Assembly (NCBI GenBank): GCA_027451445.1
Contig: DAIDJG010000618.1
Coordinates: 1 to 43,062 of the forward strand
Length of the DNA stretch: 43,062 bases
Origin: Singulisphaera sp.
GTDB lineage: Bacteria > Planctomycetota > Planctomycetia > Isosphaerales > Isosphaeraceae
Direction: 5' to 3'
Positions 4,264 through 43,062 of this stretch are shown here, in pieces. The translations under genes and the position numbers were made by a program. The notes under the pieces are model-generated. The model searched no databases. It saw nothing but the letters and a program-made list of their open reading frames with translations, and was not told the origin of the DNA. Positions within the stretch are counted from its first letter, which is position 1. Each line of letters begins with the position of its first letter.

Positions 4264-4635
4264 GATTTCGAGAACCTCGAGTTTTGGTCTGCGGTTTTTA
4301 AAGTCGTTCAGTACAAGTGCTGGAGAGCTTTTCAACGGTCGCTTTGGGGAGGGAGGCTAGAAGACTGTCTACCCAAGTACCTATGCCCCGAATCGGGGCG
4401 TGTCCGACGCGTTGAGGAAAAGCGACGTTCGCCGAGAAGTTGCCGAACAACTCTTCCCCTGGGCCGGAGGAGTTGATCTATCGCGAGGCAGAATTGATAG
4501 CTCGCTCGGCGGGGCGCGACGTTGCGCGATGTGTGGTCCACTTGGCCGCATTCGGCTCAGGCGTGTTGGAACGCGTGGGAGCGGCGAGGCGCCGCGGCGC
4601 GGGATGGAAGTGCTCTGGATGGGTCGTCGAGGCAG
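4264..4635. other. Intergenic stretch between protease gene and tRNA array
   Basis: No supported gene. A short perfect dyad GCCCCGAATCGGGGC occurs near 4386-4400; it could form a hairpin in the transcript leaving the tRNA array, but no U-run follows it. Other open frames here are extensions of GC-rich noise. Confidence 0.45.
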
Positions 4636-4706
4636 AGACGCCGGTGGGAGTCGAACCCACTTCAACCGGGTTGCAGCCGGTCGCCTGGCCGTCTGGCTCC
4701 AGCGTC
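4636..4706 (-). tRNA. trnC-GCA: tRNA-Cys (GCA)
   Basis: Acceptor GACGCTG pairs with CGGCGTC; anticodon stem ACCGG/CCGGT encloses CTGCAAC; T arm GTGGG-TTCGACT-CCCAC; discriminator U, as expected for Cys. CCA is not encoded. Position 8 is G and position 14 reads as G, not the usual U8/A14. Last gene of the array. Confidence 0.9.
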
Positions 4707-4728
4707 ATCATGTTTGAGAACGAGACGA

Positions 4729-4801
4729 TGTCCTTGCCAGGAGTCGAACCTGGTCTCCGACCTTCGCAGGGTCGCGTGCGCATCCGTCACACTCCAAGGA
4801 C
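4729..4801 (-). tRNA. trnR-GCG: tRNA-Arg (GCG)
   Basis: Acceptor GTCCTTG/CAAGGAC is perfect; anticodon arm CGACC-CTGCGAA-GGTCG gives anticodon GCG, reading CGC/CGU. Most bacteria use ACG (inosine) here. G8 and G14 replace U8/A14. Discriminator A. Shares its D arm with the next two Arg genes. Confidence 0.88.
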
Positions 4802-4806
4802 CTGGA

Positions 4807-4877
4807 TCCTCCGCCCGGGAGTTGAACCCGGCCTTGCGGCTTCGAAGACCGCCGTGCGTCCGCCACACTCGCAGAGA
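4807..4877 (-). tRNA. trnR-TCG: tRNA-Arg (TCG)
   Basis: Acceptor TCTCTGC/GCGGAGG pairs with wobble pairs; anticodon arm GCGGT-CTTCGAA-GCCGC gives TCG for CGA codons. T arm CCGGG-TTCAACT-CCCGG. D arm matches the neighbouring Arg genes; G8/G14 again. Discriminator A. Confidence 0.85.
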
Positions 4878-4878
4878 G

Positions 4879-4951
4879 TGCCCTCGCCAGGAGTCGAACC
4901 TGGTCTGCGACCTTCGGAGGGTCGCGTGCGCGTCCGTCACACTCCAAGGGC
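4879..4951 (-). tRNA. trnR-CCG: tRNA-Arg (CCG)
   Basis: Acceptor GCCCTTG/CGAGGGC; anticodon arm CGACC-CTCCGAA-GGTCG gives CCG. Nearly identical to the Arg(GCG) gene outside the anticodon, so the two probably arose by duplication. G8/G14. Discriminator A. Confidence 0.88.
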
Positions 4952-4963
4952 TTCAATGAACAG

Positions 4964-5033
4964 CAGGGATGCAAGGATTCGAACCCTGTCCGCGAGTTTT
5001 GGAGGCTCGCTGCTCTCCCAGGAGCACACCCCT
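4964..5033 (-). tRNA. trnW-CCA: tRNA-Trp (CCA)
   Basis: Acceptor AGGGGTG/CATCCCT with discriminator G, typical of Trp; anticodon loop CTCCAAA gives CCA. The D arm is short (CTC-CTGGGA-GAG), giving only 70 nt in total. Follows the HNH gene by about 50 bp on the same strand. Confidence 0.85.
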
Positions 5034-5082
5034 GTATCGAGGCCCTCAACGTGATCGCGCTGAGGGCGGGAAACGTGTCGTG

Positions 5083-5673
5083 TCAGGCGGTCACGAGCGC
5101 GGGTTCGTGTGCCATGAACTTGGTCCAGCTCGCGATCCGAGCGCCCTGAGCGGCGTAGAACGGCTTCCACTCGGGTCGAACGGGTCGCTTGCGGAGCCGC
5201 ATTCCCGCCTGCTCGGGGGTGCGGTCGGCCTTGCGGGCGTTGCACTCGATGCAGGCGGCGACGCAGTTGATCCAGCTCGATGCTCCACCTTGAGAGCGCG
5301 GGAGGACGTGGTCGATCGTAATGGCCTCACTGCCCGGCTGCACACCGCAGTACTGGCACGTGTAGTGGTCACGCTTCGCGACGTTTCGCCGACTGAAGGT
5401 TACGGCGGTGCTGGGAAGCCGGTCGTAGTGGGCGAGGCTGATGACTTCGGGAACCCGAAGCCGCAGCCGGGCAGCCCGGACACAGGGCTCGCCGTCGATC
5501 GGCTCGAGGGCGGCCCAGTCCTCCCAGTCGTAGAGCCGGTACTCGTCGGGCTCGACGACCTTCGCGGTGTCGTTCCAGAGCATGACGAGCGCCCGTACCA
5601 CGTTGGTGACGTGGACCGGTTGCCATTGTCGGTTCAAGACCAGGGTCGGAAGCTCCAGCACGTTCGTCGTCAT
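5083..5673 (-). CDS. HNH endonuclease inside the tRNA array
   Basis: 196 residues. ATG 5671-5673 is chosen because GGAGG stands 5 nt upstream; a GTG 12 bp earlier is possible. The centre holds a zinc-ribbon HNH fold: YTCQYCG, then IDHVLPRSQGG (catalytic His) and NCVAACIECNARKADR (second Cys pair and His-Asn-like region). The N-terminal half (VLNRQWQPVHVTNVVRALVM) is conserved in a widespread bacterial HNH family of uncertain role. Such enzymes cut DNA with a metal ion. The gene lies between tRNA-Trp and tRNA-His on the array strand, so it is probably cotranscribed. HNH genes are common passengers of tRNA arrays in phages and mobile elements; a housekeeping role cannot be excluded. Confidence 0.9.
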   Translation of the reverse strand: MTTNVLELPTLVLNRQWQPVHVTNVVRALVMLWNDTAKVVEPDEYRLYDWEDWAALEPIDGEPCVRAARLRLRVPEVISLAHYDRLPSTAVTFSRRNVAKRDHYTCQYCGVQPGSEAITIDHVLPRSQGGASSWINCVAACIECNARKADRTPEQAGMRLRKRPVRPEWKPFYAAQGARIASWTKFMAHEPALVTA

Positions 5674-5702
5674 CGTCGCCTCCACGATAAGGTCACGATG
5701 AG

Positions 5703-5774
5703 GGTGCCTGACCGGACTCGAACCGGCGCCTTCTGCCTCACAAGCAGGCGTGCTGCCCTTACACCACAGGCACC
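5703..5774 (-). tRNA. trnH-GTG: tRNA-His (GTG)
   Basis: Acceptor GTGCCTG/CAGGCAC with an extra encoded G at -1 opposite discriminator C, the bacterial His signature. Anticodon loop TTGTGAG gives GTG. One mismatch at the 27-43 pair. Canonical U8/A14. Confidence 0.9.
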
Positions 5775-5805
5775 ATCACAGGACAAAAACCGGCCAACGC
5801 CGGAG

Positions 5806-5889
5806 CGGAAGGGGCGGGAGTCGAACCCGCAAGGCTCTCGCTCGCCCGCTTTCCAAGCGGGTCCCGTCACCGGGTCGGGTAGCCCTTCC
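5806..5889 (-). tRNA. trnS-GGA: tRNA-Ser (GGA)
   Basis: Class II tRNA: acceptor GGAAGGG/CCCTTCC, anticodon arm CCCGC-TTGGAAA-GCGGG, long variable arm, discriminator G. Position 8 is C instead of U. Confidence 0.9.
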
Positions 5890-5911
5890 GAATCGGATAC
5901 AAGACTTCGAG

Positions 5912-5984
5912 TGATCCCGGGTGGACTCGAACCACCGCTCTTCCCCACGTCAAAGGGATGTCTTCGCCGCTAGACGACGGGACC
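5912..5984 (-). tRNA. trnV-GAC: tRNA-Val (GAC)
   Basis: Acceptor GGTCCCG/CGGGATC with one G-U pair; anticodon stem TCCCT/GGGGA encloses TTGACGT, giving GAC. Discriminator A, T arm GTGG-type. Canonical U8/A14. Confidence 0.85.
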
Positions 5985-6001
5985 GATTGATCATTCGCAA
6001 G

Positions 6002-6074
6002 CACCCCGACCAGGACTCGAACCCGGAACTCCTCGTTAGAAGCGAGGTGTGATCGTCCGTTTCACCATCGGGGC
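6002..6074 (-). tRNA. trnR-TCT: tRNA-Arg (TCT)
   Basis: Acceptor GCCCCGA/TCGGGGT; anticodon arm CCTCG-CTTCTAA-CGAGG gives TCT. Discriminator G. Its sequence closely resembles the reconstructed split tRNA-Arg(CCT) next to it. Confidence 0.88.
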
Positions 6075-6079
6075 CAGAA

Positions 6080-6124
6080 TGTCCCGACCAGGACTCGAAC
6101 CCGGAACCCCTCGTTAGGACCGAG
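6080..6124 (-). pseudogene. 3' half of interrupted tRNA-Arg (CCT)
   Basis: From the anticodon loop to the discriminator this is a good tRNA: loop GTCCTAA, stem CGAGG, T arm CCGGG-TTCGAGT-CCTGG, acceptor TCGGGAC and A73. Upstream of CTCGGTCCTAA the sequence no longer fits an acceptor or D arm. The matching 5' half is at 8107-8145. Joined at the shared 11 bp the halves give a 73-nt tRNA with seven acceptor pairs and a perfect CCTCG/CGAGG anticodon stem. Confidence 0.85.
6114..6124 (+). repeat. Left attachment-site core
   Basis: TTAGGACCGAG, the left copy of the 11-bp direct repeat. It covers the anticodon loop and 5' anticodon stem of the interrupted tRNA-Arg(CCT). Flanking bases differ between the two copies, which fixes the length at 11. 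Confidence 0.75.
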
Positions 6125-6245
6125 CCAAAACCACCAACATCGGACGTTAGTCGTTACCCCATAATGCTTTGCGTGCTGTCGTTTTGCGGCATCTCCAACG
6201 AGGGATTGCGGAGATTCCCCGAAGCCTCGCTAGCACCGAATTTCG

Positions 6246-6272
6246 CCGAAAACGGTGATTGAAACGGTGACT
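6246..6272 (+). repeat. Element-end repeat, left copy
   Basis: Two copies of AAACGGTGA within 27 bp, 122 bp inside the left core. The right-end copy at 8018-8043 has the same layout and orientation, with one base less in the spacer. Candidate arm-type recombinase or replication sites. Confidence 0.6.
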
Positions 6273-6402
6273 TCGGGATCGCCGGTTACTTATCAACCGC
6301 ACATGTCAAGCAGACGCGGTGAAGATCAGAAAGGTTCGGGGGGAAACTCGACGTATCCAAACTGGGACTCTGGCAACGGGTCGCGTACCGAGTAACGGAA
6401 AT

Positions 6403-6572
6403 GGCTCAAGATGGGTTGCAGGGTGGTGGTTCCGCTAGTTTCGCCGCAAGTCCTTGATCCGTAGGGAGTTGTCGCCTCGGGGAGGAGTTGCCGTCCCCTG
6501 GCTCTAAGTCGTGACAGGGCATGACGTTACACCGAATTGGTCGAGTCACCACTCTGATACCCATCTTGAGCC
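6403..6572. repeat. 14-bp inverted repeat enclosing 142 bp
   Basis: GGCTCAAGATGGGT at 6403-6416 is exactly inverted at 6559-6572. The layout resembles the ends of a small MITE, but no target duplication is evident at the borders. It could instead form a long cruciform or RNA stem. Confidence 0.45.
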
Positions 6573-6948
6573 TTAATCAAAACGCTCTGCGTTACCATTG
6601 AGAAGACTTCGGGCTGGAAGGCCACGGCGAAGACCGGGATCGCCGCCATCCTTTCCCCCAGCACAACACCTTCAGCGCCCAAGCGGTTTGTCAAGATTGG
6701 CTCGACGCTGGTAATTCTGGCGCCGCCCGATAGAATAGGGGATCTCCGCTAGGTACAGGCCCTAATTACGAAGACGCACTTCCCTCGCCATTACCGGATG
6801 CCATGCCACAAAATATTTCTCTCTGAACTACGAATAGCAGGCTATGGACGTGGTGACTTGGGTCAGCACAATTCTCACCTTTGGCAGTGTGCTTACGCCA
6901 AACTTGACGTTTGATGTGTTTCATAGGCCTTCAACCAGGAGCGGACAG

Positions 6949-7539
6949 ATGTTGAGCGGACGTCTTCGACTCGCGCTGATTCTCGGCATGACACTTCTGG
7001 TCGGAGGGGCACACGTCTTTTCTCAGCAGCCACCGCAGAATAAGCAGCACACCACATCTCATGAAGTGACGCGTCTAATCCAACTCCTTGATGATCCGAA
7101 TCCAACCGTCCGAAAACAAGCTGTCATCGCCTTGAGTGAGATTAGCAACTCAATTCACAAATCGCTTCAGGCACATCTTACCGATGAAAATGCCGAAGTT
7201 AGATCCGCCGTGGCCGAAGCGCTTGATCATAAAGATGCCAAGGCTACAACGCCCAAAAACTCAACGCTTCCCACGGAAGTCTGTCAAAGCTGTAAGGGAG
7301 CAAGAAACGTTCAAACGAAATGTGAACGGTGTAGAGGTACAGGAGATGAAAAATGCCTCAACTGCAATGGTACGGGCAAAACTATAAATATCCTCGACAA
7401 GGAAGTTGCTTGTTACAAGTGTAATGGTGCCGGCAAAAACACATGTACGTATTTTCAATGCAAGGGCACAGGAACTTACGAAGACCGATGTGCCAAATGT
7501 AAGGGAGTGGGATACACTATTCGATTGTTTAGCCAATAA
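6949..7539 (+). CDS. Secreted HEAT-repeat protein with DnaJ-type zinc-finger repeats
   Basis: 196 residues from ATG 6949, which has GGAG 7 nt upstream; an ATG at 6844 lacks this. A signal peptide of about 25 residues (LRLALILGMTLLVGGAHVFS) precedes two HEAT-like repeats (LIQLLDDPNPTVRKQAVIAL and a LTDENAEVRSAVAEAL unit). The C-terminal half has at least five CxxCxG(x)G units (CQSCKGA, CERCRGTG, CLNCNGTG, CYKCNGAG, CAKCKGVG), the DnaJ central-domain pattern that binds two zinc ions; no J domain is present. Likely a periplasmic or surface protein-binding factor. Codon use is visibly richer in A and T than the surrounding genes, consistent with its place inside the insertion. Confidence 0.82.
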   Translation: MLSGRLRLALILGMTLLVGGAHVFSQQPPQNKQHTTSHEVTRLIQLLDDPNPTVRKQAVIALSEISNSIHKSLQAHLTDENAEVRSAVAEALDHKDAKATTPKNSTLPTEVCQSCKGARNVQTKCERCRGTGDEKCLNCNGTGKTINILDKEVACYKCNGAGKNTCTYFQCKGTGTYEDRCAKCKGVGYTIRLFSQ

Positions 7540-7569
7540 ATCGCCTCTTTTCGCATTTCGTTCAATGTC

Positions 7570-7689
7570 ATGCCCCTGGTTTCTATTAATGAATCAACTT
7601 CGACGCAGGTCGAGTGTGCCGATGAGCACTCACGCGAGCATACGCGGACGGCGCATGACCACCACTTCCGGCTGCGACTAGCACAGTAA
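7570..7689 (+). CDS. Tiny possible gene inside the insertion
   Basis: A 39-codon frame beginning MPLVSINESTSTQVECADEH and ending RLAQ. Its stop overlaps the next frame's ATG as TAATG, an arrangement typical of translational coupling. No ribosome site or family recognised; it may be the remnant of a longer gene. Confidence 0.2.
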   Translation: MPLVSINESTSTQVECADEHSREHTRTAHDHHFRLRLAQ

Positions 7690-7790
7690 TGGGCGGCACG
7701 GCCGGGCATACCAAGTTCGGCCATCTGCTTGGCTGGCACTACTCGACGCTCTGGCGCAACCTGAACGGCAAGTGTGGTCGGCCAAGATAA
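7689..7790 (+). CDS. Tiny possible DNA-binding remnant
   Basis: A 33-codon frame coupled by TAATG to the one before. Its translation contains KFGHLLGWHYSTLWRNLNGK, which has the spacing of a recognition helix in small helix-turn-helix proteins, and ends GRPR. It could be the tail of a decayed excisionase or regulator. Tentative. Confidence 0.25.
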   Translation: MGGTAGHTKFGHLLGWHYSTLWRNLNGKCGRPR

Positions 7791-7877
7791 TCGACGTGAA
7801 ATCCGCCGTTTCTGATCAACTTCTCCGATTACCCGATCCGATGAACTGGTGATCCAGGCGGTGTTGACCAAACGTAG

Positions 7878-7951
7878 CACCCCGGGCAGGACTCGAACCC
7901 GCAACCTCGACCTTAGGAGAGTCTCGCTCTTTCCAGTTGAGCTACCGGGGC
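7878..7951 (-). tRNA. trnR-CCT: tRNA-Arg (CCT), intact, carried by the insertion
   Basis: Acceptor GCCCCGG/CCGGGGT, canonical D arm GCTCAACTGGAAAGAGC with U8/A14, anticodon loop CTCCTAA giving CCT, T arm GCGGG-TTCGAGT-CCTGC, discriminator G. The sequence differs from the interrupted host gene, so it is not simply a duplicate. It has the most orthodox D arm of any tRNA in the window and supplies the isoacceptor the insertion destroyed. Confidence 0.85.
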
Positions 7952-8017
7952 GAAAAGAGGCGGGATACATGCTCATCGGTGACAATCCATGTGATTCATG
8001 GAAGCGGTGGACGATGC

Positions 8018-8043
8018 CCGAAAACGGTGACTAAACGGTGACT
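8018..8043 (+). repeat. Element-end repeat, right copy
   Basis: CCGAAAACGGTGA followed by CTAAACGGTGACT, matching the left-end copy at 6246-6272 in direct orientation and lying 63 bp inside the right core. Confidence 0.6.
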
Positions 8044-8106
8044 GTGCGATGCAAAGTGAACGAAAACGCCTTGTTTTATAGGGTTTTCTGACCGCGTCAA
8101 TCCTGC

Positions 8107-8117
8107 TTAGGACCGAG
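8107..8117 (+). repeat. Right attachment-site core
   Basis: TTAGGACCGAG, the right copy of the 11-bp direct repeat, continuous with the 5' half of the interrupted tRNA-Arg(CCT). Confidence 0.75.
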
Positions 8118-8145
8118 GAATGATGATCCGTTTCACCACCGGGAC
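8107..8145 (-). pseudogene. 5' half of interrupted tRNA-Arg (CCT)
   Basis: Acceptor GTCCCGG, U8, D arm GTG-AAACGGATCAT-CAT, anticodon 5' stem CCTCG and loop up to GTCCTAA; then the match to a tRNA ends. Pairs with the 3' half at 6080-6124 and closely resembles the D arm of tRNA-Arg(TCT) at 6002-6074. Confidence 0.85.
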
Positions 8146-8156
8146 AACTTCACAAG

Positions 8157-8242
8157 CGGAAGGCAAGGGATTCGAACCCTTACGCCCTTTCAGGCGCACT
8201 CGTTAGCACCGAGGCCCGGCCAACCGTATCCGGCTACCTTCC
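8157..8242 (-). tRNA. trnS-GCT: tRNA-Ser (GCT)
   Basis: Class II tRNA: acceptor GGAAGGT/GCCTTCC, anticodon arm CCTCG-GTGCTAA-CGAGT, long variable arm, T arm AAGGG-TTCGAAT-CCCTT, discriminator G. Position 8 is A. First array gene to the right of the insertion. Confidence 0.88.
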
Positions 8243-8255
8243 GTTTGACTGCGAG

Positions 8256-8326
8256 TGGACCCACCGGGAGTCGAACCCGGACCTCCGCCACGCCAGGGCG
8301 GTGCCATTCCGTTAGGCCATGAGCCC
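8256..8326 (-). tRNA. trnA-GGC: tRNA-Ala (GGC)
   Basis: Acceptor GGGCTCA/TGGGTCC contains G3-U70, the alanine identity pair. Anticodon arm CCGCC-CTGGCGT-GGCGG; discriminator A. Confidence 0.9.
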
Positions 8327-8340
8327 GTCATTACTGACAG

Positions 8341-8411
8341 TGGACCGCCGGGGAGTCGAACCCCGTTCTCCTGGTTGCAGGCCAGGTGTCTTTCCATTCG
8401 ACCAGCAGCCC
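8341..8411 (-). tRNA. trnA-TGC: tRNA-Ala (TGC), with C33
   Basis: Acceptor GGGCTGC/GCGGTCC keeps G3-U70 and A73, pointing to alanine. A perfect CCTGG/CCAGG stem encloses CCTGCAA, giving anticodon TGC but with C in place of the near-universal U33. Shifting by one gives GCA (Cys) with U33 but breaks the stem. Confidence 0.75.
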
Positions 8412-8426
8412 AACTTCGTCACCGAG

Positions 8427-8498
8427 AGGTCCGCCCGGGAATCGAACCCGGTCCACCTCCTTACCATGGAGGAGTGCCGCCGGTAACACCTGCGGACC
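8427..8498 (-). tRNA. trnT-GGT: tRNA-Thr (GGT)
   Basis: Acceptor GGTCCGC/GCGGACC perfect; anticodon arm CCTCC-ATGGTAA-GGAGG. Position 8 is A and position 14 reads T, a swap of the usual U8/A14. Discriminator U. Confidence 0.88.
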
Positions 8499-8526
8499 GT
8501 TCGCGAGAGAGTCGTCTTTGCGAGAG

Positions 8527-8598
8527 AGGTCCGCCCGGGAATTGAACCCGGTCCGCCTCTTTACAAGAGAGGCATGCTCCCGGAAACACCTGCGGACC
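8527..8598 (-). tRNA. trnT-TGT: tRNA-Thr (TGT)
   Basis: Same acceptor and T arm as the GGT gene; anticodon arm CCTCT-CTTGTAA-AGAGG. Again A8 with T14. The two Thr genes look like duplicates that diverged in the anticodon arm. Confidence 0.88.
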
Positions 8599-8611
8599 CT
8601 TCACAAGTGAG

Positions 8612-8683
8612 TCGTCCCGGAGGGAATCGAACCCCCGTTGCCTCTTTGTAAGAGAGGAGTCGTAGCCGTTGGACCACGGGACG
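8612..8683 (-). tRNA. trnV-TAC: tRNA-Val (TAC)
   Basis: Acceptor CGTCCCG/CGGGACG; anticodon arm CCTCT-CTTACAA-AGAGG; discriminator A; canonical U8/A14. Confidence 0.87.
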
Positions 8684-8701
8684 TGAACATCAACACTTCA
8701 G

Positions 8702-8775
8702 TAGCACGGGAGGGAGTCGAACCCACAAACACCAGAATCTCATTCTGGCCGCTGTGCCAGTTTGCGTACCGTGCC
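8702..8775 (-). tRNA. trnL-GAG: tRNA-Leu (GAG), short variable loop
   Basis: Acceptor GGCACGG/CCGTGCT, D arm CGCAAACTGGCACAGCG, anticodon arm CCAGA-ATGAGAT-TCTGG, then a variable loop of only 5 nt (TGTTT), T arm and A73. Bacterial Leu tRNAs normally have a long variable arm. One T-stem mismatch. Confidence 0.78.
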
Positions 8776-8786
8776 ATTCGTTGCAG

Positions 8787-8855
8787 TTGCGGGTCGGGGA
8801 GTTGAACCACCGCTTCCGAGTTTATGAGGCTCAGTTGAGCACCGGCCCACCCGCA
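8787..8855 (-). tRNA. Degenerate tRNA with anticodon CAT
   Basis: Acceptor TGCGGGT/ACCCGCA is perfect and CTCATAA gives anticodon CAT, but the D arm is too short to form a stem, the T stem has two mismatches and the 31-39 pair is C-A. Only 69 nt. Probably a decaying or highly atypical Met/Ile2 tRNA. Confidence 0.5.
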
Positions 8856-8868
8856 ATTCGTCTTCGAG

Positions 8869-8938
8869 TCCCAGACCCCGGTATCGAGCCGGGCGCATCG
8901 GCCTTATGAAAGCCAACCGGGCACCTGCCACGCCTGGG
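8869..8938 (-). tRNA. Atypical tRNA with anticodon CAT
   Basis: Acceptor CCCAGGC/GTCTGGG, anticodon arm TGGCT-TTCATAA-GGCCG, T stem CCCGG/CCGGG. The T loop is CTCGATA (C54 instead of T54) and the D arm is compressed to about 14 nt. Elongator Met or Ile2 cannot be told apart; it may be non-functional. Confidence 0.6.
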
Positions 8939-8956
8939 TTTTCCATTACTGATCAG

Positions 8957-9029
8957 TAGCCCTGACGGGAGTCGAACCCGCTTCTCCACCTTGAGAGGGT
9001 GGTGTCCTGTGCCGGTAGACGACAGGGCC
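8957..9029 (-). tRNA. trnE-CTC: tRNA-Glu (CTC)
   Basis: Acceptor GGCCCTG/CAGGGCT; D arm GTC-TACCGGCACAG-GAC; anticodon arm CCACC-CTCTCAA-GGTGG; T arm GCGGG-TTCGACT-CCCGT; discriminator A. Confidence 0.88.
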
Positions 9030-9044
9030 ATTTCGTTCAGAGAG

Positions 9045-9128
9045 TGCGCCGGGACGGAATCGAACCGCCAGGTCCCCGAAGGGAGCGTGGTTTACAGCCA
9101 CGGGGGCCCACCAATGCCCAGCCGACGC
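9045..9128 (-). tRNA. trnY-GTA: tRNA-Tyr (GTA)
   Basis: Class II tRNA of 84 nt: acceptor GCGTCGG/CCGGCGC, anticodon arm CGTGG-CTGTAAA-CCACG, long variable arm with CCC-TTC-GGGG hairpin, discriminator A. Position 8 is C. Confidence 0.9.
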
Positions 9129-9149
9129 GAATCTTTCTGTATCGTGCGA

Positions 9150-9224
9150 TCGCACGGGTGGGAGTCGAACCCACACATCACCAAGGTTTGAGCTTGGCCG
9201 CTTTGCCGGTTTGCGTACCGTGCG
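9150..9224 (-). tRNA. trnL-CAA: tRNA-Leu (CAA), short variable loop
   Basis: Acceptor CGCACGG/CCGTGCG, D arm nearly identical to the Leu(GAG) gene, anticodon arm CCAAG-CTCAAAC-CTTGG, variable loop of 6 nt, perfect T stem GTGGG/CCCAC, A73. All helices are intact, so it does not look like a decayed copy. Confidence 0.82.
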
Positions 9225-9233
9225 TTGCGTCAG

Positions 9234-9307
9234 CGCCCTCGACGGGAGTTGAACCCGCAAGCTCCTGGTTGACCGCCAGGCGAGCCTCCCACCGACTCTA
9301 CGAGGGC
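9234..9307 (-). tRNA. trnD-GTC: tRNA-Asp (GTC), with G33
   Basis: Acceptor GCCCTCG/CGAGGGC perfect, discriminator G as in Asp, anticodon stem CCTGG/CCAGG enclosing CGGTCAA. The anticodon reads GTC but position 33 is G instead of U. Confidence 0.75.
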
Positions 9308-9323
9308 ATCGTTCTTTTCGGAG

Positions 9324-9397
9324 TGGCCCAGGAGGGATTCGAACCCTCAGCATCTCTCGTTCTAAGCGAGAGTGGTCTGCCGGTTGCCTACCGGGCC
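9324..9397 (-). tRNA. trnL-TAG: tRNA-Leu (TAG), short variable loop
   Basis: Acceptor GGCCCGG/CTGGGCC, anticodon stem CTCTCG/CGAGAG (six pairs) enclosing CTTAGAA, short variable loop, T arm GAGGG-TTCGAAT-CCCTC, A73. First tRNA of the array, 16 nt after the boxA motif. Confidence 0.82.
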
Positions 9398-9524: not shown

Positions 9525-9548
9525 AAAAAAACCCGGTGTGTGACCGGG
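9525..9548 (-). terminator. Intrinsic terminator pointing into the tRNA leader
   Basis: On the minus strand: CCCGGT, loop CACAC, ACCGGG, followed by seven T. This is a textbook Rho-independent terminator. It would stop minus-strand transcripts coming from the right just before the array promoter, insulating the array. Confidence 0.8.
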
Positions 9549-9812
9549 CCGTGGATACACGATGATCCAGGGCCGAGTGTCAGCAATCGAGACGATACGC
9601 CACGCGGGCGAGACAACTTTCGAGACGATGTTCACAACGCAAGGCGTTCATGGGAACCTCTCAGGTTTCAGGCGATCGTTGTCGCTTACACCACAACAGA
9701 CGCACGAGGCGGCGCGGATGTTCGCGCGAAAATCACGAATCTCTGGAAGTCGGCGTCTGGGCTTCATGCCCTTCGCTGCCTCGGGTACGATGAGGCCAGC
9801 AAGGAGGAAGCC

Positions 9813-37797: not shown

Positions 37798-40700
37798 TTA
37801 CCGGTCCGCCGAGCGGCCGATTCGTTCGGGGGTCAGGCTTTGCAAGAGGGCGTCAACCTCCGCATCGCTGAGTGATTCGGTTGCGGGTTCGGGGTCGTCC
37901 GAGGCGCATTGCTCGAGTATCTGCTTGTGCTCTTCTTCACTCATCATTGGGAGCGTGCTGATGGGTTCGTCGGGCGCGGCCGTCGCGCCTTCCAACAGGG
38001 TCGCGTAGTGTCTCAGCATGCGGTCGACTGTGGCAGCCTCAAAGAGCGTGGCATCGTACTCCATAATGGCGTTCAGCCCGCCGTCGTCTTCCGCGACGAA
38101 GAGGCTGAGATCGAACTTCGCCGTGCCACTCTCGGCGGGAAGCGGCGTCATGGTGAGGCCGGGGGCTTCGAGCGGGGGGACCGGGGCGTTTTGCAGTGCG
38201 AACATCACCTGAAACAAGGGAGATTGTGCGGATTCGCGTTCGGGGCGGAGCGCGTTCGTGAGTTGCTCAAATCGAACGTCCTGGTTCGCATAGGCATCAA
38301 GCGATGTCTGACGCACGCGTCGGAGGAGCGACCGAAAGCTCGGGTCGCCCGACAGATCAAGGCGCAAGACGAGCGTGTTGACGAAGAATCCGATCAGGTT
38401 CTCGAACTCCGAGCGCGTGCGGCCGGCGACGGGGGTACCGACTGCGAAGTCAGCCTGGCTCGAGTAGCGATTCAGAAGCGTGGCGAAACCGGCGAACAGT
38501 GTCATGAAAGTTGTCGCTCGCTCCTGCCGGCTCAAGGCTCGTAGGGCTCTGTTGAGATCGTCCGAGAGTCGCAACGTGCGCTGACCGCCGTAATGCTGGG
38601 AAGATGAAGGACGGGGCCGATCGGTTGGGAGCTCCAGGACAGGTAAGCCCTGAAGCTTCGCTTTCCAGTAGTCTAGCGCGGGGCTTTGTTGCGTTTCACT
38701 CTGCCAGGCGGCGTAGTCGGCATACTGGATCGCGAGCTCGGGCAGCGGCGACGGTTTGCCCGCGCGGAAGGCGTCGTAGAGCGTCGCAAGCTCGCGGACG
38801 AGTACGCCCAGCGACCAGCCGTCGGAGGCGATGTGGTGCATTGTCACTACAAGAATGTGTTCGTCGTCGCCGAGCCGGATCAACAACGCGCGAAGCAGTG
38901 GGCCGGTCTCCAGGTCAAAGGGACGGGCCGATTCGGCGTCGATCCAGCGACGCGTTTCGGCTTCGCGCTCGAGGGGCGGCAAAGGGGAGAGATCCATCAG
39001 AGGCAGAGGAACGGCGAATTCTTCGGCGATTGTTTGATGCGCGACGCCATCGAGAGTCACGAACGCTCCGCGCAAGACCTCGTGCCGGCGCACGACCTCG
39101 CGGATCGCGGCTTCCAGTGCGGCCACATGCAACTGACCTTGGATTCGTACAGCAGTTGGGATGTTGTACTGGGCGCTGCCCGGCGCGAGACGGTCGAGGA
39201 ACCAGAGCCGTTGCTGCGCAAACGAGAGGGGCAGGGGGCTCGTGCGTTCGAGACGATGGATCGGTGGCATCGAGAGCCCGGATCGCTCGCGTAGGCCATT
39301 TTCAACCTGGCGTACGAGGGTGGCGACGGTCGCGTCTTCGAGGAAGTCGCGTAGCGAGGGCTCGACAGAAAAAGTGTCGCGAATACGGGCCATGAGTTGA
39401 GTGGCGAACAGCGAATGGCCTCCGAGATCGAAGAAGTTGTCGTGCACGCCGACCCGCTCGAGTCCGAGCAAATCACTCAGGATGCTGGCGATGGCTTCCT
39501 CGACCGGCCCGCGCGGCGGCACGTACACGGCGGTGCGGCTGGCCGCGATTTCGAGCTGAGGCAGAGCCTTGCGATCGATCTTGCCGTTGGGGGTCAATGG
39601 GAGCGCCTGCAATCGGGCAAATGCGGACGGGATCATGTAGTCGGGCAACTGCGTGGCGAGCCACGGTCGTAGCGTGTCGGCGGCGAGGTCCGCGTCGTCG
39701 CGCGTTACGAGGTACGCCACCAAAGCCTGCTCGCCGCTCGCGTCCGGCCGGGCGATCACGGCGGCCTCGCGCACCATGGGATGGCGGAGCAGGATGGATT
39801 CGATGTCGCCGAGCTCGATCCGGAAACCTCGGACCTTGACCTGATGATCGATCCGCCCCAGGCATTCGAGCCGGCCGTCGGCCAACCAGCGAGCGAGGTC
39901 GCCGGTGCGATAAAGTCGGGCGCCGGGCTTCGTGCTGAACGGGTCGGGGACAAACTGCTGCGCGCTCAGGCCGGGACGGTTCAGGTAGCCGCGCGCCAGT
40001 CCGGAACCGCCGATGTAGAGTTCACCCGTAATGCCTACCGGGACCGGGCGCAGTCGTGTGTCGAGCACGTACATTTGAGTGTTGGCGATTGGGCGGCCAA
40101 TCGCGATCGGCGCGTCGCCTGGCGCGACACGCTCGATCGAGGACCAGATTGTCGTCTCGGTTGGTCCGTAGAGGTTCCAGAGGGCCTTTCCTTTCTCAAG
40201 CAGGCGATCGGCGAGCGCGCGGGGCAGAGCCTCGCCACCGCAAAGAAGAGTAAGGTCCGGCTCGCCTTCCCAGCCAGCATCGAGCAGCAGCCGCCAGGTT
40301 GCGGGCGTGGCCTGGAGAAACGTTGTACCGGTCTGCCTTAGCAAGTTGGCCAGGCCCTTGCCGTCGGCCGCTGTCGCACGCTCGACGAGCTCGAGGCGGG
40401 CGCCCTGGATCAACGGAAGGTAAAGCTCCAGCGCGGCGATGTCGAACGACAGGGTGGTCACAGCCGCCAGTGTGTCGCTCGATGTCAGCCCCAGGATCTG
40501 ACGCATCGAAAGGAGAAAGTTACTCAACGCGCCGTGTGTGATCTGAACCCCCTTGGGCCGACCGGTCGAACCGGAGGTGTAGATCACGTAGGCGAGGTTC
40601 GCGATAGTCGACAGCGGTTTCGGATTCTCGACGCTCTCGTTGCCGATCGTTGTCCAGTCGGTGTCAAGACAAACGGCTCGCTCGCCATGCGACGCCAGTC

Positions 40701-41124
40701 GCCCTAGGAGGGGTTGCGTGGTGACGAGCACCGGTACGCACGCGTCGGTCAGCATCAACGCCAGACGGCTCTCCGGGAACTGGGGGTCGAGCGGCACATA
40801 CGCGGCGCCCGCTTTGAGGATGCCGAGTAATCCTATAACCATCTCCGGCGATCGTTCGACGCACAGCGCGACCAATGTCTCCGGTCCGACGCCAAGCTTT
40901 CTCAGATGATGGGCTAGCTGATTCGCGCGGCTGTTGAGCTCATCGTACGTGAGCGCGACGTCGAGGAAGCTGAGCGCCACCGCGTCCGGCGTGCGTGCGA
41001 CTTGCGCTTCGAATAATCGGTGTACGAGCGAATCGAATGCCGCTCGCTCGCGGAGCAACCGTGCGAGTTGCCGGCGCTTGTCTTCGGCGTTGGTGATCAT
41101 GGTCGGCTGGACGGCATTACTCAT
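37798..41124 (-). CDS. NRPS, A-PCP-C, predicted glycine-activating
   Basis: 1108 residues. A short helical leader (NAEDKRRQLARLLRERAAFD) precedes an adenylation domain (about 35-530): LTYDELNSRAN, YVIYTSGSTGRPKG, NLYGPTETTIWSS, YRTGDLARW, NGKIDRKALP. Pocket residues read by eye give D-I-L-Q-L-G-L-I-W plus Lys, which I remember as a glycine code. The carrier domain has FFDLGGHSLFATQ with Ser near 570. The condensation domain (about 620-1050) has LPLSFAQQRLWFLD and HHIASDGWS near 763. The protein ends with a short acidic helix (SLSDAEVDALLQSL). No thioesterase or reductase follows. ATG 41122-41124 starts 3 nt after the previous stop, so translation is probably coupled. Confidence 0.95.
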   Translation of the reverse strand: MSNAVQPTMITNAEDKRRQLARLLRERAAFDSLVHRLFEAQVARTPDAVALSFLDVALTYDELNSRANQLAHHLRKLGVGPETLVALCVERSPEMVIGLLGILKAGAAYVPLDPQFPESRLALMLTDACVPVLVTTQPLLGRLASHGERAVCLDTDWTTIGNESVENPKPLSTIANLAYVIYTSGSTGRPKGVQITHGALSNFLLSMRQILGLTSSDTLAAVTTLSFDIAALELYLPLIQGARLELVERATAADGKGLANLLRQTGTTFLQATPATWRLLLDAGWEGEPDLTLLCGGEALPRALADRLLEKGKALWNLYGPTETTIWSSIERVAPGDAPIAIGRPIANTQMYVLDTRLRPVPVGITGELYIGGSGLARGYLNRPGLSAQQFVPDPFSTKPGARLYRTGDLARWLADGRLECLGRIDHQVKVRGFRIELGDIESILLRHPMVREAAVIARPDASGEQALVAYLVTRDDADLAADTLRPWLATQLPDYMIPSAFARLQALPLTPNGKIDRKALPQLEIAASRTAVYVPPRGPVEEAIASILSDLLGLERVGVHDNFFDLGGHSLFATQLMARIRDTFSVEPSLRDFLEDATVATLVRQVENGLRERSGLSMPPIHRLERTSPLPLSFAQQRLWFLDRLAPGSAQYNIPTAVRIQGQLHVAALEAAIREVVRRHEVLRGAFVTLDGVAHQTIAEEFAVPLPLMDLSPLPPLEREAETRRWIDAESARPFDLETGPLLRALLIRLGDDEHILVVTMHHIASDGWSLGVLVRELATLYDAFRAGKPSPLPELAIQYADYAAWQSETQQSPALDYWKAKLQGLPVLELPTDRPRPSSSQHYGGQRTLRLSDDLNRALRALSRQERATTFMTLFAGFATLLNRYSSQADFAVGTPVAGRTRSEFENLIGFFVNTLVLRLDLSGDPSFRSLLRRVRQTSLDAYANQDVRFEQLTNALRPERESAQSPLFQVMFALQNAPVPPLEAPGLTMTPLPAESGTAKFDLSLFVAEDDGGLNAIMEYDATLFEAATVDRMLRHYATLLEGATAAPDEPISTLPMMSEEEHKQILEQCASDDPEPATESLSDAEVDALLQSLTPERIGRSADR

Positions 41125-41127
41125 CGT

Positions 41128-43062
41128 TCAGTCTTCACCTTCCGTCCGGAGACGTTCGAGGAAGTCATCGAGCTCCTCGTCGGAAAGCTCGTCCACATCG
41201 GGATACAGCCCGTCGAGCAGGTCTGCAAACTCGGCGGGAGGCCCGGCTTGATGACTCAGGACGATCGATCGCTCATGTTCGGGCAACAGATCCAGCTCCG
41301 CGATTCGGCGTTCAGGACCGGAGACCATCTCGACAAGCAGGGTGGCCAGATGTCCGAGGATGCGCTCGGACGTTGTCCTGTCGAAACGCGCACAGTCGTA
41401 CCCGAGCGACAACGTCAGAACACGACCCGGGATGACCGTGAGCGTCAGCGGGTAATTGGTCTGACCGAGAACGCGAATTCCGTCCACGCCGAGTCGCGCG
41501 GCTCGCTCGAGAGTCGAGGAGTCGAGCGGTGTGTTCTGAAAGACGAGCAAGCTCTCGAACAACGGCTGGCCCCGAGCGACGTCGCTCCAGCTTTGAACCT
41601 GGACGAGAGGGCTGAATTCGTGCTCGCGCATGGCGACCTGGCGCTCCTGGACAGCCCTCAGCCAAGCAACGAGCTCGGCGTCCTCGTCCACGAAAACGCG
41701 CAACGGAAGCGCGTTGATGAACATGCCGATCATCGTCTCGACGCCGGCAAGCTCCGGAGGCCGGCCCGAGACCGCAACGCCGAACATCACGTCAGACTGG
41801 CCGCTATAGCGGTTGAGGAGCAAGGACCACCCACCCTGAAGGATTGTGTTCAGGGTCAGTTGATGCAAACGTGCCAGGTTGCGGAGCGCTTCGCTCAACG
41901 CTTTCGACAAGCGCAGCTCGCTTTCGGCGGCGGCGGGACCCGTCGTCTCCGGCGCAGTGCGGGACAACGGCTCGAATCCAAGCGGCGTCGGAGACGAGAA
42001 GCCCCGCAACTGCCGGCGCCAATAGGCTTCGGCTCGTGAGAGGTCGCGCGTCTTGAGCCAGGCGACATAATCGCGGTAAGGCCGAGGCGCGGAGCGATCC
42101 AATAGCGGATTCTGGTAGAGCGCCAGCACTTCTTCCAATAGCAGTGGCAGACACCAGCCGTCGAGCACGATGTGGTGCACTGTCCAGACCAATTGCGTGA
42201 CCTCATCACTGAGCCGGATCAGCGCCAGGCGCATGAGGGGTGCCCACGACAGTACGAAACCCTTCGCACGGTCGTCGCGGAGAAACTCGTCGAGTTTTGC
42301 CTGTTGTTCCGTCGGTAACTCCCCGGACCAGTCGAATTGAGTCCATTCGATGTCCACGTCGCGGACGACCACCTGAAGTGAAGTATCGGTTTCCTCCCAC
42401 TGGATCGCTGTACGAAGCGCGGGGTGGCGGGCAACGAGAAGGCGCCATGCGCTCTCGAAGGCTTTGACGTCGAGGTTTCCCGTGAGCCGACAGAGCGCCT
42501 GCTCGATATAGACCCCAGAACCGGGCGCTGCCGTCCGATCGTGGAACAGCATTCCTTCCTGCACCGGGGAGAGCGGGTACGCGTCGACGATGCCGCGCTC
42601 GTCGGCGAGCAGGGACGTCAAGACCGCCGGGTCGAGCGGGTGTGGTAAGTGGGTCGCCTCGGGCGCCAGAGTGATCGTATCGACGACGGTGGCGAGCGCA
42701 GCGATCGTGGCGTATCGGAAGAGCTGGGCGGGGTCGAGCCGTACGCCGGCCTGCCGGGCCCGCACGACAACCTGCATGATCAGGATGGAATCCATCCCTA
42801 GCGTAAAGAGGTCTTCGTGGACGCCAACCCGGTCACGTCCCAGGACTTCACCGACGAGGCGCGAAAGAAGTTGCTCGATCGCGTTCCGGGGCGCTTCGCC
42901 TTCGGCAAGAGGTTCATTGTTCTCGAGCGGTGGCGCGGGGAGGCTCTTGCGATCGATTTTACCGTTGGCCGACAGCGGGAGCGTATCCAGGAATACGAAG
43001 GCGGACGGCACCATCGGGTCCGGAAGCCGTTCTTGAAGCCAGCGTCGCAGGGTCGCGCCATC
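41128..43062 (-). CDS. NRPS, C-terminal part: A(end)-PCP-C (cut by window edge)
   Basis: The frame is open to the right edge, giving 644 residues; an internal Met at 43014 is not the start. It opens inside the C-terminal lobe of an adenylation domain (VPSAFVFLDTLPLSANGKID). The carrier domain reads FTLGMDSILIMQ, an Asp-Ser variant of LGGHS often found before epimerisation or D-accepting condensation domains. The condensation domain starts AYPLSPVQEGMLFH and has HHIVLDGWC. It ends in an acidic helix (DELSDEELDDFLERL) like that of the next protein. The two proteins share the A-PCP-C layout, so each C domain probably joins its own carrier to that of the next protein. Confidence 0.94.
   Translation of the reverse strand, partial: DGATLRRWLQERLPDPMVPSAFVFLDTLPLSANGKIDRKSLPAPPLENNEPLAEGEAPRNAIEQLLSRLVGEVLGRDRVGVHEDLFTLGMDSILIMQVVVRARQAGVRLDPAQLFRYATIAALATVVDTITLAPEATHLPHPLDPAVLTSLLADERGIVDAYPLSPVQEGMLFHDRTAAPGSGVYIEQALCRLTGNLDVKAFESAWRLLVARHPALRTAIQWEETDTSLQVVVRDVDIEWTQFDWSGELPTEQQAKLDEFLRDDRAKGFVLSWAPLMRLALIRLSDEVTQLVWTVHHIVLDGWCLPLLLEEVLALYQNPLLDRSAPRPYRDYVAWLKTRDLSRAEAYWRRQLRGFSSPTPLGFEPLSRTAPETTGPAAAESELRLSKALSEALRNLARLHQLTLNTILQGGWSLLLNRYSGQSDVMFGVAVSGRPPELAGVETMIGMFINALPLRVFVDEDAELVAWLRAVQERQVAMREHEFSPLVQVQSWSDVARGQPLFESLLVFQNTPLDSSTLERAARLGVDGIRVLGQTNYPLTLTVIPGRVLTLSLGYDCARFDRTTSERILGHLATLLVEMVSGPERRIAELDLLPEHERSIVLSHQAGPPAEFADLLDGLYPDVDELSDEELDDFLERLRTEGED

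Follow-up and report, generated by a model that had tools for sequence, protein, structure and literature searches.

The window, by which we mean the whole 43,062-nucleotide stretch of Singulisphaera sp. DNA analysed here, is one contig (C618) of a 10.9-Mb draft genome that is 96% complete. It contains a dense array of 22 tRNA genes packed into 4.8 kb, all on the minus strand. The features of the array and of its upstream region are listed below.

4635–9397, minus strand: tRNA array of 22 ARAGORN genes, the second half of a conserved planctomycete order
5083–5685, minus strand: HNH endonuclease gene, between tRNA-Trp and tRNA-His
8702–8775, minus strand: class I tRNA-Leu(GAG) with a type a D arm, called by ARAGORN and Rfam; T-T mismatch at 50-64
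8785–8945, minus strand: two tRNA-like stretches with CAT in the anticodon loop, uncalled by ARAGORN; relatives have Met(CAT) there
9150–9224, minus strand: class I tRNA-Leu(CAA) with a type a D arm, called by ARAGORN and Rfam; all LeuRS determinants present
9324–9397, minus strand: class I tRNA-Leu(TAG) of type b, with a 2-bp D stem and a 6-bp anticodon stem, called by ARAGORN and Rfam
9530–9550, minus strand: intrinsic terminator GGCCCGGT-CACAC-ACCGGGTT TTTTT, part of a putative attenuator
9580–9651, minus strand: leader ORF MNALRCEHRLESCLARVAYRLDC* of 23 codons, upstream of the array and shorter than the usual 33-36 codons

This conserved half-order runs Leu-Asp-Leu-Tyr-Glu-Leu-Val-Thr-Ala-Ser-Arg-Val-Ser-His-Trp-Arg-Arg-Arg-Cys. 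The Trp gene, at 32 bits with the Rfam model, looks worn, as do the two Met-like stretches. An HNH gene occupies the His-Trp position in the arrays of several families, and homologues of the window copy lie inside phage and plasmid tRNA arrays. Inside the array but on the opposite strand, an ORF at 6844–7539 (plus) encodes HEAT repeats and DnaJ-like CXXCXGXG zinc motifs.

The three leucine genes are only 74-75 nt long. Their variable loops read TGTTT in GAG (5 nt), TGATGT in CAA (6 nt) and GATGCT in TAG (6 nt), so that the long class II variable arm is absent from all three, while Ser(GGA), Ser(GCT) and Tyr(GTA) of the same array keep theirs. ARAGORN, Rfam and a direct readout of the loops thus confirm the initial observation of the first-pass annotation, that short Leu genes sit beside long-armed Ser and Tyr. 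With the Rfam tRNA model the genes reach 46.3 (GAG), 52.8 (CAA) and 44.1 bits (TAG), and these scores, together with conservation and covariation in relatives, place them beyond chance. The helices, noted as mostly intact, include one T-T mismatch at 50-64 in the T stem of Leu(GAG). A73, U48 and U8 are present in all three. GAG and CAA have a common D arm, CGCAAAC(T/C)GGCA(C/A)AGCG, with A14-A15 and G18-G19, as had been noted. Leu(TAG) calls for a correction, as it belongs to a different subtype, also found in phage contigs, in which the 'AA' lies one position earlier.

Further genes of this kind lie on other contigs of the same genome. C410 carries 15 more array genes and C118 a lone short Leu(CAG), and C433 has a short Leu(TAA) together with Gln and Ser. 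Each of the five Leu anticodons therefore has a short gene in the arrays of this genome, and the arrays together span all 20 amino acids, provided that the Met-like stretches are counted. Long-armed housekeeping Leu genes (CAG, TAA and CAA) lie elsewhere in the genome; the array tRNAs are redundant with the dispersed housekeeping tRNAs and differ strongly from these host copies. In a sister species (locus L059) the whole array forms one run of 37 tRNAs from Phe to Cys, and five class II Leu genes are present beside it. We considered the absence of class II GAG and TAG from the Singulisphaera genome as proof that the short genes are needed, but dropped this argument in view of a draft at 96% completeness and the presence of both genes in the sister. 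The Leu(TAA) on C433 (L002, 777–850) has G73, whereas the sister-species copy has A73. G73 is a known block to LeuRS, and this one gene may be lost to the enzyme. On the same contig (L002, 490–580), the 3' part of tRNA-Gln(TTG) adjoins repeated 'gtagacca' boxes and resembles an attachment site. The array was probably split between C410 and C433 by an integrated element.

BLASTN with the window array gave matches in 18 of 40 relatives, at identities down to 67%. A covariance model built from five short Leu genes (cut-off E < 1e-11) extended these to 112 of 248 sampled Planctomycetia genomes (~45%), from at least 10 families. Cultured strains with the array include Rhodopirellula rubra, Neorhodopirellula pilleata and Aquisphaera insulae. 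Among the loci read, array gene order and the positions of the short Leu genes are kept despite differing flanks; the distribution is patchy, and arrays occur on large single contigs in G024, G030 and G035 (draft contigs). The family is strikingly uniform at two positions, with A73 in 210 and U48 in 211 of 213 distinct short Leu genes, a set in which a few 79-nt members are probably class II. The other array tRNAs have A73 in 620 of 1150 (54%) and U48 in 364 of 1150 (32%).

Three D-arm types could be distinguished. Type a (TACGCnAA..GGC..AGCG) is used by GAG, CAA, TAA and some CAG genes. Type b (TAGGCAA..GGCAGACCA), with its 2-bp D stem and 6-bp anticodon stem, is used by TAG and CAG in planctomycete arrays, and type c (TAGCCCAA..GGCAGAGGC) by all Leu boxes. 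Covariation is seen in the acceptor, anticodon and T stems. In type a, pairing reaches 97-100% at 2-71, 4-69 and 5-68 and drops to 43-50% once one side is shuffled (100% against 50% for 2-71). These percentages are inflated by ARAGORN's preference for paired stems, although the variety of pair types is real. Position 13-22 is never paired in type a, and the same is true of class II Leu.

These data bear on whether the short Leu genes are decaying pseudo-tRNAs, the debris of a dead array. The worn members of the window array (Trp and the two uncalled Met-like stretches) and its degraded attenuator, described below, would fit such a reading. Decay would not, in contrast, be expected to leave compensatory stem changes, near-fixed A73 and U48, an order conserved over many families, or a short Leu(UAA) that in some families is apparently the sole reader of UUA. 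We consider this explanation improbable, and for the family it is already largely refuted. The earlier judgement that the genes form a maintained family is upheld by the conserved-order array in at least 10 planctomycete families, by the phage copies and by the compensatory changes.

In well-assembled Planctomycetia genomes class II Leu genes are present too for all five anticodons, which makes the array copies dispensable in these genomes. Two very large planctomycete genomes of family f73 (G349 and G315; L130 and L131) contain clusters of class I Leu genes (TAG, CAA, TAA and AAG), which in G349 are near-identical copies alternating with Tyr. The idea that class I provides the sole Leu tRNAs of this family was rejected, as both genomes have class II Leu genes too. 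Class I Leu genes (CAA, CAG and GAG) were also seen at L095 in Plesiocystis pacifica SIR-1 (Myxococcota). Pattern matches in Calditrichia and Prevotellaceae contained no tRNA and are probably due to chance.

Outside the class Planctomycetia the covariance model identified lone chromosomal Leu(TAA) genes of type c. Pattern scans of 294 genomes found a short Leu(UAA) in 28 and a long Leu(UAA) in 205. The long form is missing from 25 of the 28 genomes with the short form, compared with 64 of the 266 others (Fisher p = 1e-11, a value that is too small because related genomes are not independent). A class I Leu(UAA) without a class II Leu(UAA) was found in G464, G422, G474, G254, G304, G454 and others, with class I Leu(UAA) loci at L134, L135, L140, L141 and L250-L276. 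The class II model recognises exactly four genes in each of G464 and G422 (CAA, CAG, TAG and GAG), and a 5'-half pattern recovered the same four and no fifth. We also considered that a class II Leu(UAA) might be hidden by a group I intron, but this was unsupported, as our search found neither an intron-split copy nor, in G464 and G422, such an intron. In several planctomycete families other than that of the window, the short tRNA-Leu(UAA) therefore appears to be the only UUA reader, and in G464 and G422 the decoding of UUA has to fall to it, barring a diverged long gene that escaped detection.

According to a review of identity elements, E. coli tRNA-Leu depends crucially on A73 and also requires A15-U48, G18G19 and A20a as essential elements, but can do without its long arm (PMC9976931). 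These E. coli LeuRS determinants are kept in most short Leu tRNAs. In the window GAG and CAA genes A14, A15-U48, G18G19, A20a and A73 are all in register, while in TAG the D-loop elements and A15-U48 can be matched only with a one-base shift of the D loop. Since the bacterial enzyme recognises A73 and the D-loop/T-loop hinge without using the long arm, the ordinary LeuRS would be expected to charge class I Leu. An inspection of LeuRS had been proposed; taken as copy number alone, it returned a single full-length LeuRS in each of 17 genomes checked. A second LeuRS as the charging enzyme was rejected, none being found in these 17 genomes. Charging by the ordinary single LeuRS is what we infer. 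Most planctomycete LeuRS sequences (L309-L328) carry an insertion near model position 141 and reach 950-1150 aa overall; the insertion is present with or without class I Leu arrays.

A reading in which these tRNAs decode leucine codons but carry another amino acid, as mistranslating or recoding tRNAs, could draw on the class I build, which is typical of other isotypes, on an A73 that is common to many amino acids, and on the unusual anticodon stem of type b. The D-arm pattern AA..GGYA.A with A15-U48, however, matches the class II Leu genes of the host. Moreover, among the matches listed, 132 of 134 viral tRNAs with type a, b or c D arms have a Leu anticodon, covering all Leu boxes, and this counts against another identity because a non-leucine identity would not enforce it. 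We regard such recoding as very unlikely.

The viral matches come from 2.9 million viral contigs, which were scanned with anticodon-blind D-arm patterns. All three types are present in phages, with at least 120 matches for type c, 9 contigs for type b and 3 for type a, and A73 is found in 171 of 176 viral tRNAs among the matches listed. Viral class I Leu loci (L345-L476 and L477-L481) are common and include all Leu anticodons. Cronobacter phage LPCS28, Mycobacterium phage DyoEdafos, cyanophage P-RSM6, Streptomyces phage Wakanda and Pseudomonas phage ZC03 carry class I tRNA-Leu genes of 74-77 nt, as here. The D arm is of type c in LPCS28 Leu(TAA), DyoEdafos and P-RSM6, and a variant of type c in Wakanda and ZC03, which carry a long Leu gene too. 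The records of these five phages pass over the short build without remark. The proposed search for further class I Leu genes in planctomycetes and phages was therefore productive in both. The premise of a nearly universal class II form among bacterial Leu tRNAs is correct for chromosomal Leu genes but overlooks this short form, which phages often carry.

In the plasmid arrays that we examined, from actinobacteria and proteobacteria, all Leu genes are long-armed (class II). A common origin with the plasmid arrays of other phyla was rejected on DNA similarity, which gave short matches only, and on these class II genes. As their D-arm types are found in phages and the plasmid Leu genes are only long, planctomycete arrays share their Leu types with phages, and the array Leu tRNAs may have a phage ancestry.

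Upstream of the first tRNA, many loci have a leader with terminator and antiterminator, including L001 upstream of tRNA-Phe. A typical leader, such as that of Rhodopirellula or of G001, a congeneric relative, is a short ORF, often of 33-36 codons, with its TGA stop within TTGTGACAC. It is followed ~24-39 nt after this stop segment by a terminator, for example GGCCCGGTGTC...GACACCGGGCC-TTTTTT, and the stop segment is complementary to the 5' arm of the terminator. Across 33 leaders, some of them drawn from loci that overlap or are related, the mean length of the longest helix is 8.2 bp within the same genome, compared with 6.8 bp for permuted arms (0 of 2000 permutations reach 8.2) and 4.8 bp for neighbouring segments. 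In family f3 both arms have changed together, ACCCCTGGC with GCCGGGGGT. Leader lengths vary largely by whole codons and the third-position excess is only mild, as would suit an ORF that is important for being translated rather than for the peptide it encodes. The conserved leader is likely to be a translation-stall attenuator. The window leader lies at the homologous position with GAGAGGTT upstream, as in C410 and G001. A terminator before the first gene and a complementary segment at the leader stop characterise the 33-leader set, but the pairing is weak in the window, whose antiterminator has only 4 bp. As this attenuator copy looks degraded, regulation of the window array is uncertain, and the array may be permanently off or decaying.

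These data allow us to propose a model in which the horizontally spread array would provide the cell with a second, nearly complete tRNA set. Arrays of this family would normally be held off by the attenuator: unhindered ribosomes would reach the leader TGA and cover the antiterminator, so that the terminator forms before the first tRNA. If ribosomes stalled because tRNAs were cleaved, uncharged or blocked, the antiterminator would pair with the terminator arm and the reserve tRNAs would be made. The design resembles trp/his-type leader-peptide attenuators in its short ORF, in a stop overlapping the antiterminator and in a terminator before the first gene, but differs in that tRNA genes are controlled and that the leader peptide is mixed, with no single-amino-acid run.

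Similar arrays are known. The tRNA array units with HNH genes described in mycobacteria and other actinobacteria (Morgado and Vicente 2018, PMC5966550; M. avium linear plasmids, PMC12803027) likewise have at least 20 tRNA genes for nearly all amino acids, redundancy with dispersed genes, horizontal spread and an embedded HNH gene homologous to that of the window, although their Leu genes are class II only and their gene order differs. The Anabaena trn operon, with 26 tRNA genes on the delta plasmid, is silent until translation is blocked by antibiotics (PMC10272220). It resembles the window-type array as a reserve tRNA set that is silent, a property we propose here from sequence, but it is controlled by the TrcR repressor at the promoter, and no leader attenuator is mentioned (PMC10272220). 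TrcR was the only other mechanism for switching on silent arrays that we found in the open-access literature, and the leader offers a directly testable one.

The same tRNAs might instead serve mainly in phage-style counter-defence, where molecules of altered shape replace tRNAs cut by defence enzymes or toxins and the missing arm is an escape feature. A putative antidefense function has been ascribed to mycobacterial tRNA arrays (PMC12803027), the same Leu types are common in phages, and the array tRNAs are strongly unlike the host copies. Ser and Tyr of the same arrays nevertheless keep their long arms, and the leader design suggests a general translation-stall trigger and not one limited to infection. 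We view counter-defence as a possible main role, though not the one we favour. Our preferred reading is that the three genes probably encode working class I leucine tRNAs of a phage-related, mobile reserve set, charged by an ordinary LeuRS. It is built on comparison of class I structure, conservation and covariation, anticodon specificity, phage distribution and leader covariation, and from it we infer charging, ribosomal use, induction and phage ancestry. We lean slightly towards a broader proposal, that bacteria and phages have in class I Leu an established alternative form, which arose or spread in phages, was taken into stall-sensing attenuated planctomycete arrays and replaced class II Leu(UAA) in several families.

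The short-armed leucine tRNAs are real, maintained and surprising. A long extra arm is described as a feature of all leucine tRNAs outside animal mitochondria, a rule that the short genes contradict in phages and bacteria. The animal mitochondrial tRNA-Leu also lacks the long arm and is recognised through A73 and A14, but it is an organellar molecule, whereas those described here are bacterial or phage tRNAs in which the cloverleaf is intact and the LeuRS hinge elements are present. Our search of the open-access literature found no paper that deals with a class I tRNA-Leu from bacteria or phages. As far as that literature goes, the Leu genes of class I build are new, and so are their distribution among phages, the replacement at UUA and the leader. 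The short genes provide natural class I substrates for testing LeuRS requirements, and they matter for annotating tRNAs and for designing orthogonal ones. Elsewhere in the window, large ORFs at 37798–43014 (minus) resemble nonribosomal peptide synthetase modules and lie near ABC transporter-like ORFs, as judged from their translations only.
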